A stretch of 64,000 nt of DNA, from assembly GCA_025361865.1 (NCBI GenBank), contig JANYJH010000418.1, positions 1 to 64,000 on the forward strand, read 5' to 3'. Source of the DNA: Phragmitibacter sp. (GTDB lineage Bacteria > Verrucomicrobiota > Verrucomicrobiia > Verrucomicrobiales > Verrucomicrobiaceae). Made by a program: the position numbers and the translations under genes. Shown here one piece after another: positions 48,135-63,772 of this stretch. The notes beneath the pieces were generated by a model. The model was not told the DNA's origin and did no database searches. It saw only the letters and a program-made list of their open reading frames with translations. Positions within the stretch are counted from its first letter, which is position 1, and each line of letters starts with the position of its first letter.

Positions 48135-48941
48135 TCAGCGTGAAGCCAACGGAGCTGGCTGGGCAGCCGAAGCTTTGATTGCCTCTTCGCTGTTGTCTTT
48201 GAGGAAGGCATCGAATTCTTTCTCGCTCACGACCGTGAGTTTGGCTTTCATGCCGGAGTGACCGACGCCGCAAAGCTGACCACAGATGATGTCCCATTCG
48301 CCTGTCTTGGTCGGGCGGAACCAGATGTGAGCACGCACACCAGGAGTAGCGTCTTGAGCAATGCGCATGGGCACGAGTGCGAGGTTGTGAATCACGTCCT
48401 TGCTCGTCACGTCGATGATGATCGGGCGACCCACGGGAATGGTCATTTCTCCAGATTTCACGAAGTCATCTTTGCCATTCGGGTCTTTTAGATCGCGGCC
48501 AATCATGTTGCCCGCACTGGTATTTACAAAGCGGAGCTCTTGGTTGCCGAGATTACCGTCCAAACCAGCATACTGGAAGCTCCAGTTAAACTTCTCACCG
48601 ACGGCACGTAGCTTGACCACGTCAGGCCCCATCGGGTATTGCTCGGACTGGGTTGACCACAAGGGGATAGCAAAGCCCAGTAGCAGAATGATTTCAACAA
48701 TCACCACCCCGATCTCAATGTGCGTAGAAGCATGACCGCGAACGCCGATGTAGTCTGCGTTGGGGTTGTTTGATTTACGGAACTTCGTGAAGACGATGGC
48801 CAGAAAGGTGGACCATCCGACGAAAAGCAACAGCATGAACCACTGAATGAGGCCAAGCATGTGATCAACCATTTCACCGTGCTCTGAGGCCAGCCCAGGA
48901 ACGCCGAGGAGATTGTTGAGTGAAGTAATCAGGGCAAACAT
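48135..48941 (-). CDS. ctaC: Cytochrome c oxidase subunit II
   Basis: 268 residues: two membrane helices (about 30-52 and 76-95) and a periplasmic cupredoxin domain. All CuA ligands are present: His185 (VIHNL), Cys220, Glu/Cys224, His228 and Met231 (CGQLCGVGHSGM). There is no fused cytochrome c domain, so it is an aa3-type rather than caa3-type subunit; electrons probably come from the separate mono-heme proteins encoded in the same operon. Confidence 0.95.
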   Translation of the reverse strand: MFALITSLNNLLGVPGLASEHGEMVDHMLGLIQWFMLLLFVGWSTFLAIVFTKFRKSNNPNADYIGVRGHASTHIEIGVVIVEIILLLGFAIPLWSTQSEQYPMGPDVVKLRAVGEKFNWSFQYAGLDGNLGNQELRFVNTSAGNMIGRDLKDPNGKDDFVKSGEMTIPVGRPIIIDVTSKDVIHNLALVPMRIAQDATPGVRAHIWFRPTKTGEWDIICGQLCGVGHSGMKAKLTVVSEKEFDAFLKDNSEEAIKASAAQPAPLASR

Positions 48942-49355: not shown

Positions 49356-49688
49356 TTACTTGGATGAGAAGGCGTCGAAATGCAAAGGGCTCGACTGGGC
49401 CAAGTGGGTTAGGAAGAACAGCGCGAACGTGAAGAAAACGGTGAAGACCAAGAACTTGTAAACAATGCCCCGCTCATTCTTCAAATGCATGAAGACGAAG
49501 AGTTGGAAGGCTACCTGCGTAGCGGCGATGAGCAGGCCCAAGACGATGTGCGAGGTCGTGCTGGACAGCAGATTGAAGATGGAACAGCTCAAGGCTGAAC
49601 CGATCATCAGGCCAAGACCGCCCAGCCAGATCTGACGGCTTTGCTTGCTAAAGTCGGCGGCGCTTGGTGTGGTAGTTTCTTCAGACAT
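49356..49688 (-). CDS. ctaF: Cytochrome c oxidase subunit IV (prokaryotic, CtaF type)
   Basis: 110 residues with three membrane helices. The segment IAATQVAFQLFVFMHLKNERG is diagnostic of the bacterial subunit IV family (also CyoD-like). A polar N-terminus of 20 residues precedes the first helix. It lies 24 bases after ctaE. Confidence 0.88.
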   Translation of the reverse strand: MSEETTTPSAADFSKQSRQIWLGGLGLMIGSALSCSIFNLLSSTTSHIVLGLLIAATQVAFQLFVFMHLKNERGIVYKFLVFTVFFTFALFFLTHLAQSSPLHFDAFSSK

Positions 49689-49712: not shown

Positions 49713-51089
49713 TTAGAAAAGGTAGAGAACAGGGAAAACGATCATCCAAACAATATCTACAAAGTGCCAGAAGAGACCGCCCACTTCCACGCGGTTGGTC
49801 AGATGCTCAGGGTCGGTCTTGTAGAGCCCGCCGTTGAAGAAGAGGAAATAGGCCAGAACGAGAGCGCCACCGACGATGTGCAATCCGTGAAGGCTCGTCA
49901 TCGCGAAGTAGATCGCGTAATAGTTGTGATACTTGGGAGTGAAATTGGAGTAGAAAGCCACGTCTTTCTTGAGGATGGCGACTTCAGGATGGTGATGCTC
50001 TTCATGCGTGGCGGGTGCGACCTCCGCATGGTCTTTCATTTCTGCTTTGCCAGCTTCTTTCGCTTCATGCACGGGCGCACCAGCTTCACTATGAAGGCTT
50101 ATGGGCATCGTGAAGGCCTCACGCACAAAGTCCGTATCACCGAGGCTTCCACCTGATTTGCTCTTCTCTGCTTTTTGCTTCAAGAAAGCTGTTTTCCAAT
50201 CGCCACCCAAGACACGCCAAGCATCTGCTTTTTCAACGAGTTCATAGGCGTGGGATAAGCTCTTCTCGCCAGCAGGAATGGCTTGGCGGAGGTCCACCTT
50301 ATCCACTTCCAGACGAAGGGTGTCATCTTCGAGCTTTCCTTCGAGCACCGTTCCATCACGGAAGGTGGCTTTGGTGCCGTCGTAAGAAATCAGAGCGGAG
50401 GGAGTAATCGCGAACTTAAGCGGGGCCGTTGCAGTGTATTTGATTTCCGGTTGCTTCTTGCTGAAGGCCTCGCTGACCACGCTGCTCACGGTTGCCTTGT
50501 CCAAGACCACGACTTTTCCCGTCGCATCTTTGAACTCAGGCTTGGAATCCACCAAGTAACCCAAAAAGTTACCATCAGAGCCTGGGGTGATGAAAGGCAT
50601 GTTGAAATTGAGCAAGCCCTTCTCGTTGGGACGGGAAGCAAGTGTCACCGTCTTCACATCTAAGAACTTGATCTTGTAACCGCCTTCAGCCAAGTGGCCC
50701 TCCAGCACGCTGCCATCCTGAAGACGGACGCCGTAGTGGTGGAACTTGTCGCCATACTCACGGATTTTGATGGTCATGAAAGCGACCGACAAAAGTAACG
50801 TCGCCGCCATAAAGATCTGATAGCGACGGAAGTTCCGCATCTTCAGCGAGAGCCACGCCTGAAGCACCGTGATAGAGGAGAGGATCAGGATGAGGGTGTT
50901 GACGAAACCCGCTTGGACGTTGAGAACGTGAGTCGGCCAGGGTGTGTCCGATGCCAGACGAAGGAAGATGTAAGCGGAGAACAAACCGCCAAACAGCATG
51001 ACTTCGGAAGCGAGGAATAACCAGATGGCGATCTTGGCGTTCCAAAAACCCGTGTCGGGCCGAGCTTTTACAGTGTAGGGAATGTCCAT
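49713..51089 (-). CDS. ctaE: Cytochrome c oxidase subunit III with a large inserted soluble domain
   Basis: 458 residues, more than twice the normal length for the five-helix form. Helices 1-3 (about 18-40, 58-80, 90-108) and 4-5 (about 385-417, 436-456) are standard, including YYAIYFAMTSLHGLHIVGG and GGLFWHFVDIVWM. Between them residues 115-385 form a polar insertion. It contains two similar beta-rich units (119-150 with RLQDGSVLEGHL; 240-267 with TFRDGTVLEGKL) and a His/Glu/Ala-rich linker (350-368). The frame is continuous with no stop, so this is a real domain. Role unknown. Confidence 0.92.
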   Translation of the reverse strand: MDIPYTVKARPDTGFWNAKIAIWLFLASEVMLFGGLFSAYIFLRLASDTPWPTHVLNVQAGFVNTLILILSSITVLQAWLSLKMRNFRRYQIFMAATLLLSVAFMTIKIREYGDKFHHYGVRLQDGSVLEGHLAEGGYKIKFLDVKTVTLASRPNEKGLLNFNMPFITPGSDGNFLGYLVDSKPEFKDATGKVVVLDKATVSSVVSEAFSKKQPEIKYTATAPLKFAITPSALISYDGTKATFRDGTVLEGKLEDDTLRLEVDKVDLRQAIPAGEKSLSHAYELVEKADAWRVLGGDWKTAFLKQKAEKSKSGGSLGDTDFVREAFTMPISLHSEAGAPVHEAKEAGKAEMKDHAEVAPATHEEHHHPEVAILKKDVAFYSNFTPKYHNYYAIYFAMTSLHGLHIVGGALVLAYFLFFNGGLYKTDPEHLTNRVEVGGLFWHFVDIVWMIVFPVLYLF

Positions 51090-51132: not shown

Positions 51133-52974
51133 CTAGTGCTCGGCATGAGTCAGCTTTTCCTCGGGCACTTCACCTTCGGCAAGCCACTGTGGCGTGTAAT
51201 CAGTCGATGCACCGGGAACGCTGTATTCGTAAGGACCGCGATGAACCACGGGTTCAAAATTGAAGTTGCCATGTCCCGGAGGGGTTGGGGTCGCCCACTC
51301 AAGAGTCGTCGCGTGCCAAGGATTATCGCAAGTCACTTTCTTGCCGCCCTTGATACTGAGGAAGACATTCAAGATGAAAGGAATCTGCGACAGCGCTAGG
51401 CACCATGCGGCAATAGACATCACCTCATTCAACCAAAGCAGGTGGCGAGTCGTGTCTTCAAAGGCCATGCCGCCGTTATACCAGCGACGATGGAAACCAG
51501 CGAGACCTTGAATGAACATCGGAGCAAAGAGGAAGTTCATGCAAATCAGTGAGGGCCAGAAATGAAGACGTCCCAACGTTTCGTTCATAAACCTGCCCGT
51601 GATCTTGGGATACCAGTGATAGATACCTGCGAAGAGCGCGAAGATCGTTCCGGGAGCCACAACGTAGTGAAAGTGGCCGATGACATAGTAAGTGTCATGC
51701 AAGAATAGATCCGTCATGCTGAAGGCGAGAGGCAATCCTGTTAGGCCGCCAATACCGAACATGGGTAGGAACGCGCAGGCAAAAAGCATCGGCGTATTGA
51801 AACGGATGGAACCGCCCCAAAGGGAAATCATCAGACAAGTCAGGAGAACGACTGAGGGCACTGAGATGGAGACCGTCGTTATCTGGAAGAAAGTGCTGAC
51901 GACAGCGCCCATGCCTGTGAGATACATGTGGTGAGCCCAAACAATAAAGCTGAAGAAGCCGAGCACCAAAGCCGCATAGACCATCGTTTTGTGACCCCAC
52001 AAGGGACGACGGATATTACAAGGAATGATGTCGCTCACGATGCAAAACGCAGGGAGGATCAAAACGTAAACCTCAGGATGCGCGAGGAACCAGAATAAAT
52101 GCTGGTAGAGCAACGGGCTGCCACCGCCTGCGATGTCCAAGTGGCGGTTGGAATCCAATAATCCCGTAGGAAGGAAGAAACTGGAACCAAAGAGACGGTC
52201 AAAGAGCTGGAGAACCGCAGCCACTTCCAGCGGCGGGAAGGCCAAGAGTAGTAAGAAGGCAGTTACCAACATGCCCCAGACGAAGAAAGGCATTCTCATC
52301 CAAGTCATACCCTTGCAGCGCAAGTTGATGATGGTCGTGATGATATTGACCGACCCCAGCAGAGATGAGGAAATCAGGAAGACCATGGCCATAAGCCACT
52401 GGGTCTGCCCGGAGAAGAAGACATCTTTGACATCCATCTGCGTGGTGGAAGCCAATGGGGAATAGTTCGTCCAGCCACTCTGCGCTGCGCCTGAGGGCAT
52501 GAAGAAACTCATCATCATCAAGACACCGCCGATGAGATTAAGCCAATAGCTCCAAGCGTTGAGCTTAGGGAAGGCCATATCAATCGCGCCGATCTGAAGG
52601 GGGACAAGGTAGTTCCCGAAAGCACCGAAAGCCAAGGGCACAACACCCAAGAACACCATGATGGTTCCATGCATGGCCCCAAACATATTGTAAAGCTCGG
52701 GGCTCACTACTCCGCCTGGTGCCCAGCGATCACCGAGGAACGCACCAATGAGGGGCATCGGCTTGTCAGGATAAGCGATGCTCCAGCGCATCACCATCAT
52801 CAAGAAGAAACCAGCGAGCAGGAAGACCAAGGAGGTAAGTCCATACTGAATACCGATCACCTTGTGGTCGGTGGAAAAGATATACTTGTAGATGAAGCTC
52901 TGCTTCGGATGGGCCTCATGCGCGTGATCATGGGCTTCACCGTGGAGTTCTTCGTGTGTAATGGCGGCGCTCAT
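51133..52974 (-). CDS. ctaD: Cytochrome c oxidase subunit I (aa3-type, catalytic)
   Basis: 613 residues. The binuclear centre is complete: LAHPEVYVLILP (CuB His and cross-linked Tyr), WAHHMYLTG (CuB His pair) and IGHFHYVVAPG (heme a3 and heme a His). The low-spin heme His of helix II is in MFGAMHGTIMVF. It reduces O2 to water and pumps protons. This is the only intact oxidase centre in the cluster. Confidence 0.97.
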   Translation of the reverse strand: MSAAITHEELHGEAHDHAHEAHPKQSFIYKYIFSTDHKVIGIQYGLTSLVFLLAGFFLMMVMRWSIAYPDKPMPLIGAFLGDRWAPGGVVSPELYNMFGAMHGTIMVFLGVVPLAFGAFGNYLVPLQIGAIDMAFPKLNAWSYWLNLIGGVLMMMSFFMPSGAAQSGWTNYSPLASTTQMDVKDVFFSGQTQWLMAMVFLISSSLLGSVNIITTIINLRCKGMTWMRMPFFVWGMLVTAFLLLLAFPPLEVAAVLQLFDRLFGSSFFLPTGLLDSNRHLDIAGGGSPLLYQHLFWFLAHPEVYVLILPAFCIVSDIIPCNIRRPLWGHKTMVYAALVLGFFSFIVWAHHMYLTGMGAVVSTFFQITTVSISVPSVVLLTCLMISLWGGSIRFNTPMLFACAFLPMFGIGGLTGLPLAFSMTDLFLHDTYYVIGHFHYVVAPGTIFALFAGIYHWYPKITGRFMNETLGRLHFWPSLICMNFLFAPMFIQGLAGFHRRWYNGGMAFEDTTRHLLWLNEVMSIAAWCLALSQIPFILNVFLSIKGGKKVTCDNPWHATTLEWATPTPPGHGNFNFEPVVHRGPYEYSVPGASTDYTPQWLAEGEVPEEKLTHAEH

Positions 52975-53017: not shown

Positions 53018-53749
53018 TTATTTCTTGGTCGCTGGATCGGGAGCGGCGACAGGGGCGGCGGTTGCTCCAGGGCCCGCAGGGATTTCACCAGGACAATTCA
53101 TCTCTTTATACTTCTCGAGATCAGTTGGCGACCAAGGACCGACATGATCCTTCACTTCGGCGCGGACTTTGGCCACCATTTGCTTGGTCACCATCGGAGC
53201 CTGATTTCCCCAGCTATTACGCACGTAGGTGAGGACATTGGCAATCTCATCATCAGACATCACAGGAGGCATCATCACGTTGTTGTAGGAGGCTCCTTTG
53301 ACACTCACCGGACCCGCAAGGCCGTGCATGGCGATACGTGCGATACGCTCGGTTCCGCCCAAGACCCACTCTGAACCCGCCAGCGGAGGAATAGCACCAG
53401 GTTGCCCCAAGCCCGTTGGCTGATGACAGCCCTGACAGTTGTTGAAGACCGTAGAGCCTTTTTTCATGGCCAACTGGAAAGCATCCAACTGTGGACCGGT
53501 CACAATACCAGCTCCACGCGGATCAATCGGGCGTTCAATAAAAGGATTGCTCTTTTCAGAATCAAAGCCGCCGACATAAGCACCCGCATAGCCACCGCCG
53601 AGGATGGTCATGATCATCATGCCAACAATCACCCACAGAGGCGTCGGCTCCCGTCCTGCTACCACATCAGGATTCTCGCGCTTCACTGCGGCATGAAGGC
53701 GATCCAGATCAGTATTATCGAAGTTTTGTGGTTGGTTCATGGCATCCAA
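53018..53749 (-). CDS. Membrane-anchored mono-heme cytochrome c (CcoP-like)
   Basis: 243 residues: cytosolic N-terminus, one helix (about 37-60), then a cytochrome c domain with heme motif CQGCH (105-109) and axial Met in VMMPPVMSDDE. The tail is Pro/Ala-rich. Single-heme, unlike di-heme CcoP, but placed like CcoP after ccoN-ccoO. It may carry electrons from ACIII to CuA of the aa3 oxidase. Gap of 3 bases to ccoO. Confidence 0.85.
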   Translation of the reverse strand: MDAMNQPQNFDNTDLDRLHAAVKRENPDVVAGREPTPLWVIVGMMIMTILGGGYAGAYVGGFDSEKSNPFIERPIDPRGAGIVTGPQLDAFQLAMKKGSTVFNNCQGCHQPTGLGQPGAIPPLAGSEWVLGGTERIARIAMHGLAGPVSVKGASYNNVMMPPVMSDDEIANVLTYVRNSWGNQAPMVTKQMVAKVRAEVKDHVGPWSPTDLEKYKEMNCPGEIPAGPGATAAPVAAPDPATKK

Positions 53750-53752
53750 TGA

Positions 53753-54436
53753 TTACTTTTTGGCCGCTGTGTCAGCGACTACCTCACCTGGTATTGGCGC
53801 GTCCTTCTTGAGTGAAAGCAGGTAGTTGACCAACTCTTCAGCTTCAGCCGTGGGCACTACTTCATAGCCCTTTTCAGGTGCGAAAGCTGCGGGTAGTTTG
53901 AGCGCTTTCGGCGAGCCTGCGGCTTGTATCGGCTGAACTTTGTAGAGGTGGCGGAATCCAGGCATGATGCTCCACTTGTTTACGGCTTGAGGAGAGTAAA
54001 GGTGCTCGTGAATTTCCAATCTGCTCTTATCTGCCAAGCGGTAGCCTGCATTGGTCAAATCAGGACCATTGCGTTGCACTCCAAGGTAAGCATAAGGTTC
54101 AAACATGTAATCGCGCTGAGTGCTCGGACGGATAGGTTGCGCAGGCGTTTCTGCTTGGTCGCTCCCCCAGCCCTTCTTCCAAGGATCGAGAATCCCTGCA
54201 AAGCCTGGACGGATCATTTGTGTGTGGCACTGGGTGCAGCCTTCCTTTGCGTAGATCAGTTGACCCTGACGGTAGATGCCTTTGCCGGGATAAGCACCTT
54301 CCATCCCATCACGCTCTTTGTCGTAGCTGAGAGTCGTGAGTTTCTGTGCGCTGATCGCAGGCACAACGATCAGTAACAACCACGGCAATCCGAAGCTGAT
54401 ACCGATTCCAATAACGAATTTCCGCAGACTGGTCAT
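53753..54436 (-). CDS. ccoO: CcoO-like mono-heme cytochrome c
   Basis: 227 residues: N-terminal anchor (about 8-28) and cytochrome c domain. GCTQCHTQMIRPG (heme Cys67/Cys70/His71) and RNGPDLTNAGYR and SIMPGF (Met158) are the signature of cbb3 subunit II. Alternates with a catalytically degenerate CcoN homologue upstream, so it serves electron transfer without a partner oxidase site of its own. Confidence 0.88.
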   Translation of the reverse strand: MTSLRKFVIGIGISFGLPWLLLIVVPAISAQKLTTLSYDKERDGMEGAYPGKGIYRQGQLIYAKEGCTQCHTQMIRPGFAGILDPWKKGWGSDQAETPAQPIRPSTQRDYMFEPYAYLGVQRNGPDLTNAGYRLADKSRLEIHEHLYSPQAVNKWSIMPGFRHLYKVQPIQAAGSPKALKLPAAFAPEKGYEVVPTAEAEELVNYLLSLKKDAPIPGEVVADTAAKK

Positions 54437-54454: not shown

Positions 54455-55930
54455 TTAGGCGGTGGCAGGTGCGTGGCTTTCTTCATGGTGAAGCAAGGTC
54501 GGGGCCACACTGCGACGGCCAAGACCTAATACCATGAGGACGAGATGAATAAAGAACCAAGCGTTGGACCACAGAATGAAGACCCAAGCCACCGTGCGGC
54601 CAATCAAATAGCCACGCGCATTGATGATGGAGCCCACAAAGGGCAGGTTCCAGTTACCCGGTGCGTTGATGCTGGCTCCCTGAGCCAAGCCACCCAGTAA
54701 CATACAAACGACCAAGGCTGCCGTTCCATAAACCGAGAACCAGAAATGACTGCGGATCAAACGAGCGCTGAGCCATTCACAGCCGCTGAGGCGGGGAACG
54801 ATGTAATAGATCGCCCCGAACATCGTCATGCTGAAGAAGCCGTAGATGGCGAGAATGTGGAATCCATATTCTGCATAAGTGAACTGCAAGAGTGAGCCTG
54901 TCCAGAAAGTGCCGAGCAAGGCCCCTACAGCGCTTAGCGCGAGATAACAAAATGATCCAACGAAGACGAATCGAAGCGTTGGGCTGGTCTCGATCAAGCC
55001 GTGGCGGCCTTCAGTGGAGATGTGGAAGTTCAGAGCCACGATACCCGCAGGCACCAGAAGAAGGATCATCACGGCACCCCCGATAGCTGGCATCCATGCA
55101 GGAAGAGGACCACCCATGTATTTTTGGATACCCGTCCAGCCACCTAAAAACGCCAAACCCCAGAAGCCGAGTGATGCCAACTGACTGCTGTAGATCGGCT
55201 GGCCTGTGATCTTGGGAAGATAATAGTAACAGGCCCCCAGACCGACCGGAACGAAGAACAGCAGGATCAGTGTGTTTACATACCAAGCATTGATCCCCGC
55301 AGCACTAGCGCCATTGAGACTGGAACCGAAGCAATGCAGGAAGAGGTTTGCGGTAAGATAAATCCAAGGGAACCAGAAACAGGCTCCGAGAATATACCAA
55401 GAAGTGATCATGAAGCCTTCACCTTCCTTGTGGGCACGGGCAAACATGCCAACTAGGCGGGTGGCGATCATTAGGAAGGAAATGGTGAAGATCGGCCAGA
55501 GATATTTCGGGAACTCAAGCCACTGCATCGAGGTGCTGCCGTGGAAGAGAATGCTGAGTAGTCCAAGGGTGACGGCGATATTCCAGAAGATGGTGGCGAT
55601 GATGACGGTGCTAGCCCCTTTAAGCTCTTGCCCAGTGCGGCGTGCCATCAACCAAATCATGGTGCCAAGACCAGCCTGCATGGCCCATCCGTAAATCAGG
55701 GCGTTCATGTGAGCAGGCTGGACGCGAGCATAATTCAGGAACCAAGTCCAATCAGAGTCCAAGAATTCAGGCGCGTAGAGCTTGACCGAGGAAACCAATC
55801 CCAGGACGGTAGCCGCCAGCAACCAGAGGGCTGCATTGGCGAAAAGAAACAGCACGGGGCCTTTCACAGAGCGGTCAATGGCCGCGCGGCGCAAGCTGTC
55901 TTCCAAGCTGGTGGTTTCTGTTGTCTCCAT
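54455..55930 (-). CDS. CcoN homologue lacking the O2-reducing centre
   Basis: 491 residues, about twelve helices, clearly aligned with cbb3 subunit I. Low-spin heme ligands are kept: His74 (QPAHMNALIYGW) and His358 (EYGFHILAIYG). The CuB ligands are gone: the helix VI His of WWYGHN is Val218 (AWYVN) and the HH pair is Gln269-Lys270 (GWTGIQKY). The high-spin heme His two residues before His358 is Gly356. No other membrane His could substitute. The frame is intact and uniform, so it is not a pseudogene. Probable role: heme b membrane electron-transfer subunit with CcoO. Not expected to reduce O2 or NO. Confidence 0.85.
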   Translation of the reverse strand: METTETTSLEDSLRRAAIDRSVKGPVLFLFANAALWLLAATVLGLVSSVKLYAPEFLDSDWTWFLNYARVQPAHMNALIYGWAMQAGLGTMIWLMARRTGQELKGASTVIIATIFWNIAVTLGLLSILFHGSTSMQWLEFPKYLWPIFTISFLMIATRLVGMFARAHKEGEGFMITSWYILGACFWFPWIYLTANLFLHCFGSSLNGASAAGINAWYVNTLILLFFVPVGLGACYYYLPKITGQPIYSSQLASLGFWGLAFLGGWTGIQKYMGGPLPAWMPAIGGAVMILLLVPAGIVALNFHISTEGRHGLIETSPTLRFVFVGSFCYLALSAVGALLGTFWTGSLLQFTYAEYGFHILAIYGFFSMTMFGAIYYIVPRLSGCEWLSARLIRSHFWFSVYGTAALVVCMLLGGLAQGASINAPGNWNLPFVGSIINARGYLIGRTVAWVFILWSNAWFFIHLVLMVLGLGRRSVAPTLLHHEESHAPATA

Positions 55931-55951: not shown

Positions 55952-56335
55952 TCACTTAGGTGCGGAAGCAGGAGCGGGCGCGGGTGCTGCTGGCGGAGCA
56001 GCGGGCGGTGGCGTTGCGGCTGCTTTCAAAGCGGTTGCTGATCCAGGCACAACAACGGTGGTGGTCGTCATTTTAGGCGTCTTGATCTGCTCTGCTGCCT
56101 TGGCGAAGATGGGAGCGGCGTTGGTTGTAAGTCCGTATTTCTCAAGTAGCGCCGCCTGTTCAGTGGCGACGTCCGCTTTCTTTTGCAGGCGCACCGGGCT
56201 CTGCGGATCTGCGGGCTTACCACCTGCGAATCCTTGGATAAGGGCTGCAAGAATGGTGAACGTGACAAAGGCAGCCAAGGTGCCGAGAAGCACCGAAACA
56301 GCGTTGGAAGATGAAGTGGTCGTCGTGGATGACAT
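55952..56335 (-). CDS. Small membrane-anchored protein between actF and the CcoN-like gene
   Basis: 127 residues: Thr/Ser-rich N-terminus, one helix (about 14-36), a helical stretch (50-90: LQKKADVATEQAALLEKYGL), and a Pro/Ala-rich tail ending in APASAPK. Not recognised. Gaps of 7 and 21 bases to its neighbours place it in the operon; it could tether ACIII to the next complex. Confidence 0.62.
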   Translation of the reverse strand: MSSTTTTSSSNAVSVLLGTLAAFVTFTILAALIQGFAGGKPADPQSPVRLQKKADVATEQAALLEKYGLTTNAAPIFAKAAEQIKTPKMTTTTVVVPGSATALKAAATPPPAAPPAAPAPAPASAPK

Positions 56336-56342
56336 GATAAGA

Positions 56343-57662
56343 TCAGTTCACTGCTTTCACAGACTCAAGGAGACGTGGATCACGGCAAGGGTAAAGACTG
56401 GCCGTTGCAAGGCGACGGAGATAAGCCCAGCCGACAATCCCACCAATACCTAAAAAGGCTGCTAGATCACCCCACCAAGCTCCATCATACCAGAGGACGG
56501 TTCCATGCGAGAGTGAAGGCGCACGCTCGGGGATGATGAGCCAGTAAATGTCTGCAAAGTGCATGATCAAGACCCAAGCGCACACCCAGACAATGGAGTC
56601 GGGTTTCTTCTTGCGACCAGCCGAGAGTAAAAGCACGAAGGTCAGCACGAAGTGCCCCCAAACGAGGATGTTGCTCAGATACCACCAGTTGTTCGTATTG
56701 CGGAGAATGAAGAAGCGAGTTTCCTCAGTGATGTTCGCATACCAGATCAGGAAGAACTGACTGAAAGCGATGTAAGCCCAGAAAACGGTGAAGGCGAACA
56801 ACAGCTTGCCCATCAAGTGGTAGTGCTCCATCGAGACGATCTTCTTCAGATAGCCATGACTGCGAACATAGCTTAGTGCGATGATCGAGAGCGCCATTGA
56901 GGACCAGGCGCCACCGGCAAAGATATAAACACCCCACATGGTCGAGAACCAAGTGTAGTCCATAGACATCACCCAATCGACGGCGGAGAAGGTTACGGCC
57001 AGAGCATAAAAGAGCAGTGGGAAGGCGCAGAAGGCACGGGCACGGAAGGAGTGCTTGAAGTCGCCATCCCCATCCTGCTTGATAGACCAGCGGCGAAGCA
57101 AGGTGGCCATACCGCCCAAGAAGACGAAGTAGAGCACGGCGCGAAGCGTCCAGAAGGGAATGTTCAGGTAGCCAAATTTTGCCACCAAGATATGCAAGTG
57201 ATGATTGGTATGAGAGGCTTCTTCCAAGCCTTTTAAGGTATCACCACCAGCCGCTGCGGCTGCGTCTTGATGGGCAACAATCCATTCCCAAAGCGCGTTT
57301 TTGAAGGGCGAGAAGAAGATCAGCGGAAGAGCGAATACCGCCATCACGCGGATATTGCCTGCCAAGTTCTCAAAGAATCGACGGACCGCAACGCTCCAGC
57401 CGGAATTGGAAATATGCTGGAGCATGGTCCAGAAAAGACCGCCGTTCGTGATAGTGAAGAAGAAGAAGAAGGCGAAGAGCCAGCTGTAAGCAAATTCCTT
57501 CTGACGCTGTTCCCCGAGCAGACCAAACATGTAGCACGCAGAAATGAGCAGGCCGAGAGCACCGACGCCTAAAAAGATGCCGTTGAGTTTAGAGACCTTG
57601 GACAGCTCCATTCGTTCCCCGTCACGCGGGAGATCATCAAGAGTAATGGGATGAGCGCTCAT
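56343..57662 (-). CDS. actF: Alternative complex III subunit ActF
   Basis: 439 residues from ATG 57662 (MSAHPITLDDLPRDGERMEL), the only start not inside actE. About ten membrane helices of the NrfD/PsrC type. ActF is the smaller of the two such proteins of alternative complex III (quinol:cytochrome c oxidoreductase) and helps form the proton half-channel. Typical segments are TITNGGLFWTMLQHISNSGW and DWVMSMDYTWFSTMWG. Confidence 0.9.
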   Translation of the reverse strand: MSAHPITLDDLPRDGERMELSKVSKLNGIFLGVGALGLLISACYMFGLLGEQRQKEFAYSWLFAFFFFFTITNGGLFWTMLQHISNSGWSVAVRRFFENLAGNIRVMAVFALPLIFFSPFKNALWEWIVAHQDAAAAAGGDTLKGLEEASHTNHHLHILVAKFGYLNIPFWTLRAVLYFVFLGGMATLLRRWSIKQDGDGDFKHSFRARAFCAFPLLFYALAVTFSAVDWVMSMDYTWFSTMWGVYIFAGGAWSSMALSIIALSYVRSHGYLKKIVSMEHYHLMGKLLFAFTVFWAYIAFSQFFLIWYANITEETRFFILRNTNNWWYLSNILVWGHFVLTFVLLLSAGRKKKPDSIVWVCAWVLIMHFADIYWLIIPERAPSLSHGTVLWYDGAWWGDLAAFLGIGGIVGWAYLRRLATASLYPCRDPRLLESVKAVN

Positions 57663-57673
57663 GCTTGAAATAC

Positions 57674-58324
57674 TTACTTGGCTGCTGGCTTGGACGCCTG
57701 TTGCAGAGTGCGAACGTAGGCCACAATAGCCCAGCGATCCTGCACTGAAATGTTGGCACCATAGGAACCCATCTGGTTCCAACCATTGGCAATCGTGTCG
57801 TAGATTTTCCCATCAGGGCGGTAAAGCGGGCTGGCTGAATCATCAAAACCAACTGCTGTCAGTTCCGCTGGAAGCACGGTGCTGTATTTGGTGAACACGC
57901 CTTTCCCATTACCAGAGAGGCCGTGGCAGATGGCACAGTTGATATTGAATCGCTCCTGTCCGCGCTTGATCAAAGCGGGAGTCACAGCGATCTCTGTTGG
58001 GAAACCGTCGCCGTAGAAATCACCCACTTTGCCCGTGAAATAGTAGCTGGTTCCATGCGTGAATTCGTAATCTTGCGCTACAAATCCAGCGCTAGCGGGC
58101 TTTGTCGGAACCGCAAAACCCATAGGCACCGTGCCCGTGATAGGCTTCCGCATGGCATGACCATCAGCAAAGAAATCGCTAGGTTGCTGATACTTCACTT
58201 TCGCCTGATTTTTCATATCAGGGAAGATTTGGAAAGGCGGCTCCTCGAAGCGATGACCACGGAAACCCGCGAAACTCACCACGATGAGAGCGACAAAGAT
58301 ATAGCTGAGGAAGAAGTGTTTCAT
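57674..58324 (-). CDS. actE: Alternative complex III mono-heme cytochrome c subunit ActE
   Basis: 216 residues: N-terminal anchor or signal (4-20) and a cytochrome c domain with heme motif CAICHG (Cys130/Cys133/His134), preceded by RGQERFNINC. A Met ligand is likely in GWNQMGSYG. It passes electrons from ActA or ActB to the oxidase side. Gap of 17 bases after actD. Confidence 0.92.
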   Translation of the reverse strand: MKHFFLSYIFVALIVVSFAGFRGHRFEEPPFQIFPDMKNQAKVKYQQPSDFFADGHAMRKPITGTVPMGFAVPTKPASAGFVAQDYEFTHGTSYYFTGKVGDFYGDGFPTEIAVTPALIKRGQERFNINCAICHGLSGNGKGVFTKYSTVLPAELTAVGFDDSASPLYRPDGKIYDTIANGWNQMGSYGANISVQDRWAIVAYVRTLQQASKPAAK

Positions 58325-58341: not shown

Positions 58342-58899
58342 TTACAGTTCGTCCTCCACCAACTCAATGTTCTTGCCGCCGACCTGCTCCAAAAAGGCTT
58401 TGGTCTCCGCCTGATGAAATTTAGGGTCGCGCGCTTCGATGCACACAATGAAGGTGTCATCCGAGAATTTCTTGAACTGCTTGGAAGCAAACAATGGGTG
58501 ATTCCAGCGAGGAAGTCCCATAAGCGCAAAGCAGCCGAACAGGGTGGTGAAGGCCGAGAAGAGAATGGTCAACTCGAACATGATTGGGAAGAACGCCGGA
58601 GTCGTGAAAATGTTCGTGGGCTTGGCCTGAACAATAGTCGGATAGATGAGAACCTGAGTGATGAAGGCAAGTGAAAACGCGGTCGTGGTGCCCGTCGCTC
58701 CACCGAAGAAAACGAACCAGGGCAAAATGGAGCGCTTCACACCCATCGCTTCATTCAAGCCGTGAACGGGATAAGGAGTGTGAACGTCCCAGCGTGAGAA
58801 TCCAGCGTCACGGATCTGTTCCGAGGCGTGATACACATCTACCGCGCTTTCAAACTCAGCGAGGTAACCGTGAACTTTTTTGAGGGTGGTCTTGGCCAT
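58342..58899 (-). CDS. actD: Alternative complex III subunit ActD (DUF3341)
   Basis: 185 residues with two membrane helices (about 58-80 and 99-125) and a cytosolic ferredoxin-like domain at the N-terminus (LKKVHGYLAEFESAVDVYHA; DAGFSRWDVHTPYPVHGL). DUF3341 is specific for ActD. No cofactor. Confidence 0.93.
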   Translation of the reverse strand: MAKTTLKKVHGYLAEFESAVDVYHASEQIRDAGFSRWDVHTPYPVHGLNEAMGVKRSILPWFVFFGGATGTTTAFSLAFITQVLIYPTIVQAKPTNIFTTPAFFPIMFELTILFSAFTTLFGCFALMGLPRWNHPLFASKQFKKFSDDTFIVCIEARDPKFHQAETKAFLEQVGGKNIELVEDEL

Positions 58900-58925: not shown

Positions 58926-60386
58926 TTAAGCAGCGACAGGTGAGCCGGACTTGGCTTCTTCGAGTGCAATTTCATGAGGCCCACGTTCAGCGTGGCTATC
59001 AAAATGGGGGTCACTTTCAGGAAGCACACCTTTCACTTCCGCAATCGCGATAACTGGAAGGAAGCGTATGAAGAGAAGGAAGTTCATCAGGAAGAAGCCA
59101 AAGGTTCCAACGAACGTCGTGATGTCCACCCAAGTAGGCTGGAAAGTCCTCCATGAGCCTGGCTGGAAGTGGCGCTCCAAGGTGGTGACGATGATCACAT
59201 ACCGCTCATACCACATGCCCGCGTTCACAAACATACAAACGACCATGACAGCGCCCAAGTTTTTACGGCACCACTTGGACCAGAAGACTTGCGGAGCAAT
59301 GACGTTGCAGAAAAACATCGCGTAGTAATTCCACGATGATGGGCTGTAGAGACAGCGGAGGAGGAACGCTTGGCCTTCATACGGATTGCCGCTGTAATAG
59401 GCCATGAACAATTCCATGCAATAGGCGTAACCAACGATCGTTCCGGTGAGGAGAATGATCTTCGCCATGTTGTCGATGTGCTTCGACGTGATCAAATCTT
59501 CCAAGCCGTAGATCTTGCGCACTGGAATCATTAGGGTGAGCACCATTGCAAAGCCGCCGAAAATAGCGCCAGCCACGAAGTAAGGAGGGAAGATGGTCGT
59601 GTGCCAACCAGGGACGATCGAAGTGGCAAAGTCGAACGAAACGACGGAGTGAACCGAGAGCACCAGTGGTGTTGAAAGAGCCGCCAAGAGCAGATAGGCC
59701 ATTTCGTAGTGATTCCACTGACGATTACCACCGCGCCATCCGAGAGCGAAGAATCCGTAGAGCATCTTTCTAATGCCGGGCTTGCAGCGATCACGAAGTG
59801 TTGCCAAATCAGGAACAAGGCCCAAGAACCAGAACAAGACTGAAACGGTGAAGTAAGTGGAAACCGCGAACACATCCCAGAGCAGAGGTGATTTGAAGTT
59901 CTGCCAGATGGCATTGGCATTCGGAACTGGAGCGAGGAACCAAACCATCCAAACACGGCCAACGTGGAACGCAGGGAACAAGCCCGCGCACATCACCGCG
60001 AACAAAGTCATGGCTTCAGAGGCACGGTTAACAGCGGTGCGCCACTTCTGACGAGTCAGGAATAAAATGGCAGAAATGAGTGTTCCCGCGTGACCAATAC
60101 CGATCCAGAAAACGAAGTTCGTGATGTCCCAAGCCCACGCAACTGGCTGCTTCTGACCCCAAACCCCCACACCTGTGGAAATAAGGTAGGCAAAGCAGCT
60201 TGCCATGATGACAGTCAAGCAAACCGAGGGGACGAAGAGCCACCACCAAAGGGCAGGCTGACGATTTTCAACGATCCCACAAATGCGGTTGGTGATCCAT
60301 CCGTAATTGCGGTTGTTGAGCACCAGCGGTTCACGCTCAAGAATGCGCGGTGTGCTGGGGGTTGAGACTGTCGCGGTTTGCGCCAT
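58926..60386 (-). CDS. actC: Alternative complex III quinol-binding subunit ActC (NrfD-like)
   Basis: 486 residues with about ten membrane helices. Family segments are [52 protein letters not shown] and [18 protein letters not shown]. ActC carries the menaquinol/quinol site near the periplasmic face. Gap of 11 bases from actB. Confidence 0.95.
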
Positions 60387-60397
60387 AGTGAGCTAAA

Positions 60398-63300
60398 TCA
60401 GAAGTTGTAAAGGCTGGCTTCCCCGGTCTTCCTGACGCGGTCAGTTTCAACGCTGGCCATCTCTGGATTCACGTTGCGGATACGGGCAAGGTAGCTCGTG
60501 CGTGGGCGAATCCCGAGATACTTGAGCACCTGATAATTACGTGGATTTTCCTTCCAAATATTGACCGTGCTCTTCTCGTTCGCGAGGTCGCCGAACATGA
60601 TGGCTTCAGCGGGGCAAGACGCCTGACAGGCGGTCTTAACTGCATCCGCAGCGATGCGAAGTTTGCTGGCGTCATCACGGGCCGCGCGACGTTGATTGAT
60701 CTTCGCGGCTTCAAGTCTTTGGACGCAGTAGGTGCATTTCTCGATCACACCACGCATACGAACGGTCACGTTCGGGTTCTTCTGGAGCTGAACCATTTCC
60801 TGCGGGTTCTTCTCGCCGAGAGGACCGGCGTAGAGATTGCGCACTTTACCTACAAGCGGGAGCTCCGTTTCGATCAGAGGGTTCCGCTTGTTGTAATCGA
60901 AGTAATTAAAACGACGCGCCGTGAACGGGCAGTTGTTGGCACAATAACGAGTGCCGATACAGCGGTTGTAAGCCATCGCATTGAGGCCGTCTTCTGTATG
61001 AACTGTCGCATTGACCGGGCAAACCGTTTCACAAGGAGCAGACTCACACTGCTGACAAGCCACCGGCTGATGAACCATTTCAGGATTCTCTAGCTCATTA
61101 AGACCTGGATCAGTGTCAACACTGTCCGTCGTCGCAAAGTAGCGATCCATACGAATCCAGTGCATCACACGACCACGGCGAACCTGATCCTTACCGACGA
61201 TGGCGATGTTGTTTTCACTCTGACAAGCCACGATACAAGCAGAACAGCCAATGCACTTAGCCAAATCAATGACCATGCCCCACTGGTGATTGTTCTCGTA
61301 ATCGAAGCCTTCGGGATTGTAATCCTCAGCCTCAGGATTCTTATCCTGCTTTTTACCAACGCGGCCTTTATAGAGAGCCAAATTCGTCGGAGGAATGTGG
61401 GAGTCCATCCCTTCCGTCGCGGCGAATTTCTCATTCTTCGCGAAACGCTCTTGGGTGCCTTCACGCACTTGAGCGCGGGCTTCCATCGTGTAGTTGTCCT
61501 GCGTAATGGCGAACTCGTAAAGATTCGCCGTCGCTTCAACCTTAGCGCCCGTTAGGACGAAATCAACAGCACTGGAACGCAGAGGATTGACATCAAAGCC
61601 GCGTTCTTTGCCGACGATGTTTGCCTGCTTTTGCCCGTAGCCGATGGGAAGCGTGATCGAGTTATGAGCGTGACCAGGACACTCAAGCGCAGCAACCTCA
61701 AGCGTCTTGCCGCCAACTGTCACCTTGATGGTGCTGTTTTCATAGCGATGGCTTTTAAGGCCCAAGGCGCGGAAGGTTTTGGGACTGAGCCAAGCGGCAT
61801 TATCCCAAGTCAATTTCGTGATCGGATCGGGCGCTTCTTGCAGCCAAGGATTCTCGGAGTAACGGCCATCCCAAACGGTGGCGTCAGGAGTGAAGACGAC
61901 TTCAAACGAATCTTTATCAGGTGCAATAGTGGGCTGAACCTTTTTCACCAAGCCTGCAATCACTCCACCGTTCACGGTAGCGCTGGCTTTTTCGTAACCT
62001 GATTTAGCCAAGAAGCCATCACGTAAGGTGACATTCCATTTCTCTTCATCCCAACCGCCAGCAATACCCTTGAAGGTCTCTTTGACGGATTCGTAGGCGA
62101 TGTCAGACACCGCAGGAGCAGGAGTTGCATTCGGGGCCGCCACGACTTTCTTGGGGGCCAATTCCTTTTTGCCAGCGAGAACTAGAAGAATTTCGTTGGC
62201 CGAAACGCCACCGAAGAGGGGTTGAATCATCGGCTGCACAATGGCGTAGGTGCCATCAGAACTACGAGCATCACCCCAAGACTCTAAATAGTGGGCTGCT
62301 GGGAGTGTCCATTTGGAGAACTTGGCAGTCAGATTATCGCTCTGGGCGAGATAAACCAACTCAGCACCACTGTCCTTGAGCGCACCAGTAAAACCAATGG
62401 CGTCAAAAGCCGGGTCAGTCTCCGTAAGCACAAAGAGATTTTTGAGCGACTTAGCTTTGAGGTCGGCCTGAAGCTCTTCAATCGTTCCGTTCGTCTGCGG
62501 CTCGACCTTGAGAATATCTACAGTGGAACCGAAGGAGTTCAGCGCGTTGTTAATGCCGATCACCAGCGCGTGAACCGCTTCACCATAGGTGGAGCCCGCC
62601 AGCACGAGCGACTTACCCTTGTTCGCAAAGAGGTCTTTCGCGGCCATCGCTATCCAAGGACGAATGTCCGCTGGAGCGGCGGATACAAGGCTAAGCGCGG
62701 ATTGTGAGAGCGCGCTATCGCCGGTCAGCTTGCCAATTTCGTCCGCGAGAACTGCGGTAGCCAACGGGATGAGCGAAGCGGCCAAAGGCTTGCGATGATC
62801 TGAGACGCCACCCGTCAAGGTGTAGCGATTCTCGATCACATAAAGACGGTTCATCTTGTCGCTTGCCTTACCCGGCGCGCGATTTTTCATGAAGTCGCGA
62901 ATGCCATTTTCGGACTGCGGATCAAGACCGAGGAAATCGCAATCCAGTGAGAAAACGATGTCAGCCTTACCGAGTTGAGGCAGCAGCTTGATGCCATCAC
63001 CAAGGAGAGTTTTAGCAGCGACAGCCGCACTGCTACGACGCACAGGCTCATAGGAATAAGCCTTCACCTTCGGAAGAGCCTTCTTCAACTCACCCAGTAA
63101 GCGGGCTTGTGTAGGCGAAGCACTTTCATTGAAGAGCAATCCTAAACCTTCACCACCACTCGCAGCCCACGCTTTGGACCAGTCAGCAAGCTGTGCCTGG
63201 AAACGAGCCCAGTCAGCTACTTCACCTGCATTAGGCCCTTCTTTTTTGAAGCCGTCAGCGCCCTCAACTTCAACCACCTCACCAAGCTCCTTGCGGAAGG

Positions 63301-63772
63301 AGAGCGTTTTGACGCGATCAGGGTTATAAAGATCCAAGACGGAGGCTTGGGCGAAAATATCCAAGCCACCAGCGAGAGGATGCAGCGAGTTCGCCTGCAA
63401 ATGAGTCGGGCGACCTTCATGAGTCGTCACCACCACTGGAGTTGCGCCCCACGCACGAGGAATCGTCGTGGTGTAAAGAAGCGGCTTACCCGGAATCATC
63501 CATTCCACATGCTTCGCAAAAGGAACTACTTTAGCCAGCGGACGACGGCAGCTAACGAGCGAAAGACCGCTCAGGGCAGCAGCGCCACCCATCATCTTCA
63601 TGAAATCACGACGGGAATTTTCGCGCTCATCCTCGGTCATGCCTTCCAAAGAAGGATCAAATTCACGGCCCAACCCCTCTTGGAATTCAGGCGCGTTCTC
63701 ATGCTCAGCAATACTGCGCCAGTAACGACGACCAGTTTTGAGGGGTTCAGGATGATGCCAAATCCGTTTCAT
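60398..63772 (-). CDS. actB: Alternative complex III subunit ActB (molybdopterin-oxidoreductase-like fused to FeS protein)
   Basis: 1124 residues. A Tat signal RRDFMK (54-59) precedes a hydrophobic stretch. Residues about 80-780 form the degenerate molybdopterin-oxidoreductase-like domain that binds no Mo in characterised ACIII. Residues about 840-1060 are an FeS domain: CIGCSACIVACQSENN, CQQCESAPCETVCPVN, CIGTRYCANNCPF and CTYCVQRLEAAK, sufficient for three 4Fe-4S and one 3Fe-4S clusters. It transfers electrons from quinol to ActA/ActE hemes. Intact. Confidence 0.95.
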   Translation of the reverse strand: MKRIWHHPEPLKTGRRYWRSIAEHENAPEFQEGLGREFDPSLEGMTEDERENSRRDFMKMMGGAAALSGLSLVSCRRPLAKVVPFAKHVEWMIPGKPLLYTTTIPRAWGATPVVVTTHEGRPTHLQANSLHPLAGGLDIFAQASVLDLYNPDRVKTLSFRKELGEVVEVEGADGFKKEGPNAGEVADWARFQAQLADWSKAWAASGGEGLGLLFNESASPTQARLLGELKKALPKVKAYSYEPVRRSSAAVAAKTLLGDGIKLLPQLGKADIVFSLDCDFLGLDPQSENGIRDFMKNRAPGKASDKMNRLYVIENRYTLTGGVSDHRKPLAASLIPLATAVLADEIGKLTGDSALSQSALSLVSAAPADIRPWIAMAAKDLFANKGKSLVLAGSTYGEAVHALVIGINNALNSFGSTVDILKVEPQTNGTIEELQADLKAKSLKNLFVLTETDPAFDAIGFTGALKDSGAELVYLAQSDNLTAKFSKWTLPAAHYLESWGDARSSDGTYAIVQPMIQPLFGGVSANEILLVLAGKKELAPKKVVAAPNATPAPAVSDIAYESVKETFKGIAGGWDEEKWNVTLRDGFLAKSGYEKASATVNGGVIAGLVKKVQPTIAPDKDSFEVVFTPDATVWDGRYSENPWLQEAPDPITKLTWDNAAWLSPKTFRALGLKSHRYENSTIKVTVGGKTLEVAALECPGHAHNSITLPIGYGQKQANIVGKERGFDVNPLRSSAVDFVLTGAKVEATANLYEFAITQDNYTMEARAQVREGTQERFAKNEKFAATEGMDSHIPPTNLALYKGRVGKKQDKNPEAEDYNPEGFDYENNHQWGMVIDLAKCIGCSACIVACQSENNIAIVGKDQVRRGRVMHWIRMDRYFATTDSVDTDPGLNELENPEMVHQPVACQQCESAPCETVCPVNATVHTEDGLNAMAYNRCIGTRYCANNCPFTARRFNYFDYNKRNPLIETELPLVGKVRNLYAGPLGEKNPQEMVQLQKNPNVTVRMRGVIEKCTYCVQRLEAAKINQRRAARDDASKLRIAADAVKTACQASCPAEAIMFGDLANEKSTVNIWKENPRNYQVLKYLGIRPRTSYLARIRNVNPEMASVETDRVRKTGEASLYNF

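Follow-up and report, generated by a model that had tools for sequence, protein, structure and literature searches.

The window, by which we mean the whole 64,000-nucleotide stretch of Phragmitibacter sp. DNA analysed, carries a respiratory gene cluster that consists of ActB-C-D-E-F followed by a small one-TM protein, a ligand-depleted homologue of CcoN, a homologue of CcoO, a cytochrome c and CoxA-C-D-B. All genes lie on the minus strand and were assigned as follows:

60398..63772, minus strand: ActB (molybdoenzyme-like and Fe-S domains), from conserved position and sequence
58926..60386, minus strand: ActC, from conserved position (67-86% identity in relatives)
58342..58899, minus strand: ActD (PF11821, 1.9e-59)
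57674..58324, minus strand: ActE, a mono-heme cytochrome c, from Pfam and conserved position
56343..57662, minus strand: ActF, from conserved position, with the start set at an ATG within the ORF
55952..56335, minus strand: small one-TM protein between ActF and the CcoN homologue (ORF without a Pfam match)
54455..55930, minus strand: ligand-depleted homologue of cbb3 subunit I (CcoN), 491 aa (PF00115, 3e-41; fold match to 3mk7_A)
53753..54436, minus strand: CcoO homologue, a membrane-anchored mono-heme cytochrome c with an intact CxxCH (FixO, 1e-15)
53018..53749, minus strand: membrane-anchored mono-heme cytochrome c, weakly CcoP-like (Cytochrom_C, 6e-12; TIGR00782, 1.5e-7, below cut-off)
51133..52974, minus strand: CoxA, A-type (aa3) oxidase subunit I (COX1, 8e-131)
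49713..51089, minus strand: CoxC with a long insert, from its place in the conserved cox block
49356..49688, minus strand: CoxD, from conserved position
48135..48941, minus strand: CoxB, with the CuA motif CGQLCGVGHSGM present (COX2, 2.5e-12)

CoxC measures 458 aa, its long insert falls between helices, and it is also long in many relatives within the order. A small ORF separates ActF and CcoN in nearly all loci, and many copies carry a motif like YGWVD..GVVRLPI..AMEL; the Pfam search of the window copy gave no match.

The CcoN homologue is read from an uninterrupted frame of 491 codons. A first-pass annotation of this DNA had described the frame as intact and flanked by an intact ccoO, and both points were borne out by the ORF, by the COX1 match (E = 3e-41) and by the FixO match and CxxCH motif of the neighbouring protein, so that a CcoO partner with a heme c motif is present. 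By sequence, the closest solved relative is P. stutzeri CcoN (3mk7_A, 3.6e-27), and the other near solved structures likewise belong to cbb3 subunit I. The AF2 model (pLDDT 94, pTM 0.93) has the 12-helix CcoN fold, and a Foldseek search with it returned 3mk7_A at TM 0.85/0.89, with top matches that were again all cbb3 subunit I. The two proteins thus share a fold, roughly 22% identity and an adjoining CcoO homologue and c-type cytochrome. The curated ccoN model TIGR00780 scored the window protein at 114 bits against a cut-off of 583, far too low for a true cbb3 identity, which was rejected. His130 stands in place of a Gly (G116 in P. stutzeri) that every other panel member from the order keeps.

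Metal ligands were located in three alignments: one with P. stutzeri CcoN, one with 45 family rows from the same order, and one with a panel spanning the class to which canonical CcoN was added. In the last of these, the positions of H60, H207, H257, H258, H345 and H347 are occupied by H, N, Q, K, F and I, respectively. The three CuB histidines are accordingly replaced by Asn219, Gln269 and Lys270, and the heme b3 ligand H345 by Phe357. The first-pass annotation had claimed that the CuB ligands are lost, and this stood, except that it had put the helix VI His at Val218 whereas H207 aligns with Asn219 (WYVN versus WYGH or WFAH), a position at which 20/45 close relatives still have His. Its placement of the His-His pair at Gln269-Lys270 agrees with our alignment of H257/H258, as does its statement that the heme b3 ligand is gone. 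The helix VII active-site Tyr251 is Gly263 here and Tyr in 0/65 order members, and Arg57, which we take to lie on the heme propionate side, is Gln71 (Arg in 0/65). The CcoN fold and the CcoO partner would fit an enzyme that still reduces oxygen or NO with unusual ligands elsewhere, but the active-site Tyr is lost, and, ligand positions aside, the best conserved His of the family in the CcoN-aligned core is H395, the counterpart of canonical H384, which is not a ligand; we give this explanation next to no weight. Relocated ligands were rejected: across the order family alignment, the membrane core that aligns with CcoN has gained no conserved His. A check for other membrane His residues at the CuB and b3 positions likewise did not overturn the earlier claim, and every CuB and heme b3 ligand is confirmed as lost.

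The low-spin heme b pair, H60/H347, was found to be incomplete. His74 occupies the H60 position, but helix X aligns without gaps both to P. stutzeri CcoN and to a six-His homologue that is 39% identical (L114, whose AF2 model is also well folded): GHSHLGLYGFF is set against GFHILAIYGFF, which pairs H345 with Phe357 and H347 with Ile359 and leaves His358 opposite the residue in between. Directly after helix X, the window protein and the 39% identical six-His homologue run through a long, nearly identical stretch (GFHILAIYGFFSMTMFGAIYYIVPRLSGCEW versus GHSHLGLYGFFTMIMFGAIYYIVPRLSGCEW). Since the helix is ungapped and this stretch follows it, His358 is best placed on the middle residue, opposite V346. 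The earlier view that both low-spin ligands remain therefore holds for His74 only, as His358 lies one residue off H347 and would need a one-residue slip. The same annotation had read the protein as a membrane electron carrier with a low-spin heme b on His74 and His358. The ligand position of His74, the nearness of His358 to H347 and the retention of both low-spin His in three depleted homologues (with Arg57 in two of them, see below) are in its favour. However, only one His stands at an axial ligand position in the alignment, where two facing ligands are expected, position 358 is mostly Gln, Asp or Glu in the order, residues that make no bis-His heme b, and Arg57 is absent from all 65 order members. 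We consider the heme b carrier unlikely. The wider part of the original proposal, an oxidase fold without an oxygen-reducing centre serving as a non-oxidase in an ACIII-aa3 cluster, was upheld.

Homologues were widespread. A match to the query, either of the window type or a canonical CcoN, was present in 51/57 near relatives and 218/286 class members, and was missing from a small-genome genus of the same order (g12). Named relatives with the protein include Prosthecobacter, Luteolibacter, Haloferula and Akkermansiaceae; the matches of the contig scan are close Verrucomicrobiales only, and other phyla were sampled only via a plasmid collection. The block ActB-C-D-E-F, CcoN, CcoO, cytochrome c is conserved across the order and the class, a few truncated or variant loci excepted, and CoxA comes next in only some of these loci. 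In a panel of 129 proteins of this kind, 109 were depleted, 19 had six His and one had Arg at position 207. H345 occurs in none of the 109 depleted proteins, H60 in 63, and both low-spin His in three, namely L078 and L087 of family f14, which keep the pair together with Arg57, and L043; in all three the CuB and b3 ligands are lost. The condition that the first-pass annotation had described does occur in the class, then, but in f14 and not in the family of the window protein. The exception at position 207 (L093) is a single copy that otherwise resembles a six-His ACIII-CcoN, and its Arg may be either the initial step of loss or an error.

Within Verrucomicrobiales, we compared the positions that are fixed in both canonical CcoN and six-His ACIII-CcoN. 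R57, W203, Y251, H337 and H345 were each retained in 0%, H347 in 2%, H257 in 3% and H258 in 11% of the proteins, and structural Trp, Pro and Gly residues, R55, R83, K228 and N289 were near 100%. The dN/dS of close pairs was 0.008-0.16 (0.25 in one distant pair of all-lost proteins), and the CxxCH of CcoO was intact in 127/127 homologues regardless of the state of CcoN. The lost ligands, the retained shell positions, the low dN/dS and the conserved CxxCH together indicate that the cofactor site has decayed, whereas selection still acts on the shell and the c hemes, and the loss is more than chance because it is common to a whole order on a scaffold under purifying selection. With a single catalytic residue left, the gene might be suspected of being a pseudogene in decay or an artefact of assembly, but the gene order is conserved class-wide in many independent assemblies, which makes this highly improbable. 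Pseudogene, frameshift and assembly error were all rejected, as frames were intact in nearly all homologues listed and dN/dS was mostly far below 0.2.

Several buried polar positions were nonetheless conserved in the order. His74 is His in 58/64 members (about 90%), position 270 is Lys, Arg or His in 56/64, and position 358 is Gln (28), Asp (17), His (7) or Glu (7) in 59/64. Positions 219 and 358 co-vary, with H219 accompanied by Q358 in 20/20 and S219 by Asp or Glu at 358 in 19/25 cases. The conservation of His74, of a polar 358 and of a basic 270 argues against a purely passive scaffold, and the polar set 74, 219, 269, 270 and 358 offers the strongest lead towards a possible role related to protons. 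The metal site would then have become a buried ionisable network (His74, Ser/His/Asn219, Gln269, Lys/Arg270, Gln/Asp/Glu/His358) serving to conduct or gate protons. By analogy with ActC and ActF, such a protein could be a cofactor-free ion-translocating subunit by ACIII, and a heme-copper oxidase fold without a redox cofactor would be an integral ACIII subunit across Verrucomicrobiae. The frequencies at 270 and 358 and the 219-358 co-variation fit a network of this kind. Against it, the equivalents of T215 and S240, presumably K-pathway positions, are mostly lost, no continuous pathway emerged, the co-variation may stem from kinship, and deeper depleted proteins lack the network, so that proton translocation, too, seems doubtful to us. 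Another possibility is that one heme persists with His74 as its sole ligand or paired with a residue other than His, giving a five-coordinate or sensor-like site. His74 is kept in Verrucomicrobiales and lost in deeper depleted lineages, so it may be under selection in the order; on the other hand, Arg57, H345 and H347 are all lost, and six order members have Phe at position 74 in the same gene context. We regard a single-heme site as rather improbable.

A careful tree was rooted on canonical CcoN and complemented by a second, larger quick tree. The stand-alone CcoN of one class member branched off first, followed by CcoN of Pseudomonadota CcoN-CcoO-cytochrome c gene sets and then by a grade of six-His ACIII-CcoN. 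The ACIII-CcoN clade was monophyletic with respect to canonical CcoN and the Pseudomonadota proteins (100/100 branch). Within the six-His grade, the depleted proteins grouped as a single clade (87/70; seen in 90% of bootstrap trees), which the larger quick tree also contained (97 SH-aLRT). Most likely, the depleted proteins are a single clade derived from six-His ancestors; given moderate support and several long rows, depletion may have had a second origin. The ligand-stripped CcoN is the rule across a large class, Verrucomicrobiae, and the homologues offer a natural gradation, from six His through the low-spin pair and a single His to none, in which the role of each cofactor and the contact between ACIII and oxidase could be studied.

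We then related ligand loss to the other oxidases of 31 genomes, with A-type oxidases called by COX1 score, whether adjacent or elsewhere in the genome. An A-type oxidase was present in 18/18 genomes with a depleted protein versus 7/13 six-His genomes (Fisher p = 0.002, with genomes counted as independent and kinship ignored). Within this sample, ligands were depleted only where another oxidase was present. In the window genome (91% complete), CoxA was the only COX1 match besides the CcoN homologue, and no bd oxidase was found. The association held at the genome level only: a strict tie to an adjacent CoxA was rejected, as several six-His clusters adjoin CoxA and many depleted ones do not. In two six-His genomes (G058 and G063), ACIII-CcoN was the only COX1 match, and in G063 (99% complete) a search for bd oxidase found none. 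The six-His form is therefore probably a real oxidase, and the ancestral form was probably a working oxidase as well.

Overall, we favour, with a probability of roughly 0.6, the reading that the CcoN homologue is a pseudo-oxidase descended from a true cbb3 (C)-type oxidase of the ACIII cluster and now a shell that holds the CcoO homologue and the cytochrome c. We base this on the ligand loss, the gene order, the selection on the gene, the fold, the c heme motifs, the derivation from six-His proteins and the second oxidase. In this reading, the protein has lost its binuclear centre, its active-site Tyr and, very probably, its low-spin heme too, and a heme-free state is likely if the pseudo-oxidase reading is right. 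As a membrane shell, it would keep the CcoO homologue and the neighbouring cytochrome c beside ACIII. Quinol electrons would pass via ActB, ActA and ActE to the c hemes of these two proteins and from there to CuA and heme a of CoxABCD, where the oxygen chemistry would take place. Gene order suggests that the CcoN homologue docks to ACIII and CoxABCD.

Compared with canonical cbb3 oxidases, the window protein lacks five of six metal ligands, Tyr251, Arg57 and H337, and its cluster has a mono-heme cytochrome instead of the di-heme CcoP. The six-His ACIII-CcoN of other Verrucomicrobiae (L082-L118 set) belong to the same clade and share the gene order and about 40% identity; they differ in keeping six His, Tyr251 and Arg57, and within the clade the window protein is a derived form with depleted ligands. 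The nearest outgroup, the three-gene CcoN-CcoO-cytochrome c oxidases of Pseudomonadota (Paraburkholderia pBN2, Azoarcus pAZKH, Indioceanicola), has the same ccoN-ccoO-cytochrome c order in the annotated two, but has six His and no adjoining ACIII. These genes lie on plasmids (L251, L252 and L253), one of them with Sco. CydB is a heme-free relative of CydA. Like the window protein, CydB and ActF are respiratory subunits that keep the fold of a redox-active relative with the site lost, but they have other folds and neither is a heme-copper oxidase. ActF is an ActC homologue without the quinol site (PMC5928083). ACIII genes also adjoin an A-type oxidase in Flavobacterium johnsoniae and Rhodothermus marinus, where the ACIII-aa3 and ACIII-caa3 supercomplexes transfer electrons directly via c hemes (PMC5928083, PMC8552683). 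The bridge there is ActA/ActE or the caa3 cytochrome domain, and the sections consulted describe no CcoN or CcoO homologue, so that bridging by CcoN and CcoO would set the cluster studied here apart from the supercomplexes reported there (PMC5928083, PMC8552683). A literature search for comparable ligand losses, with subscription papers largely outside its range, found no earlier report, and a ligand-stripped heme-copper oxidase homologue kept as a respiratory subunit is without precedent in the literature searched.

The reading also bears on verrucomicrobial methanotrophs. A review places a C-type oxidase beside ACIII in Opitutaceae and methanotrophs (PMC8498564), cbb3 has been counted among the terminal oxidases (PMC8498564, PMC10205796), and the ACIII-adjacent gene has been called a cbb3-type oxidase and linked to high oxygen affinity (PMC6688271). 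The published methanotroph 'cbb3 oxidase' beside ACIII (L234, L235, L236) appears to be a ligand-free CcoN of the depleted kind. A search of four genomes of family f12 turned up no further ccoN (best TIGR00780 score 34 bits), which suggests that the methanotroph 'cbb3 oxidase' is the pseudo-oxidase, and the inference of cbb3-based high oxygen affinity in these organisms needs to be re-checked. Family f12 carried pMMO in 6/6 genomes tested, and its ACIII-adjacent CcoN, which has neither a helix II nor a helix X ligand, is followed by CcoO, cytochrome c and CoxA.
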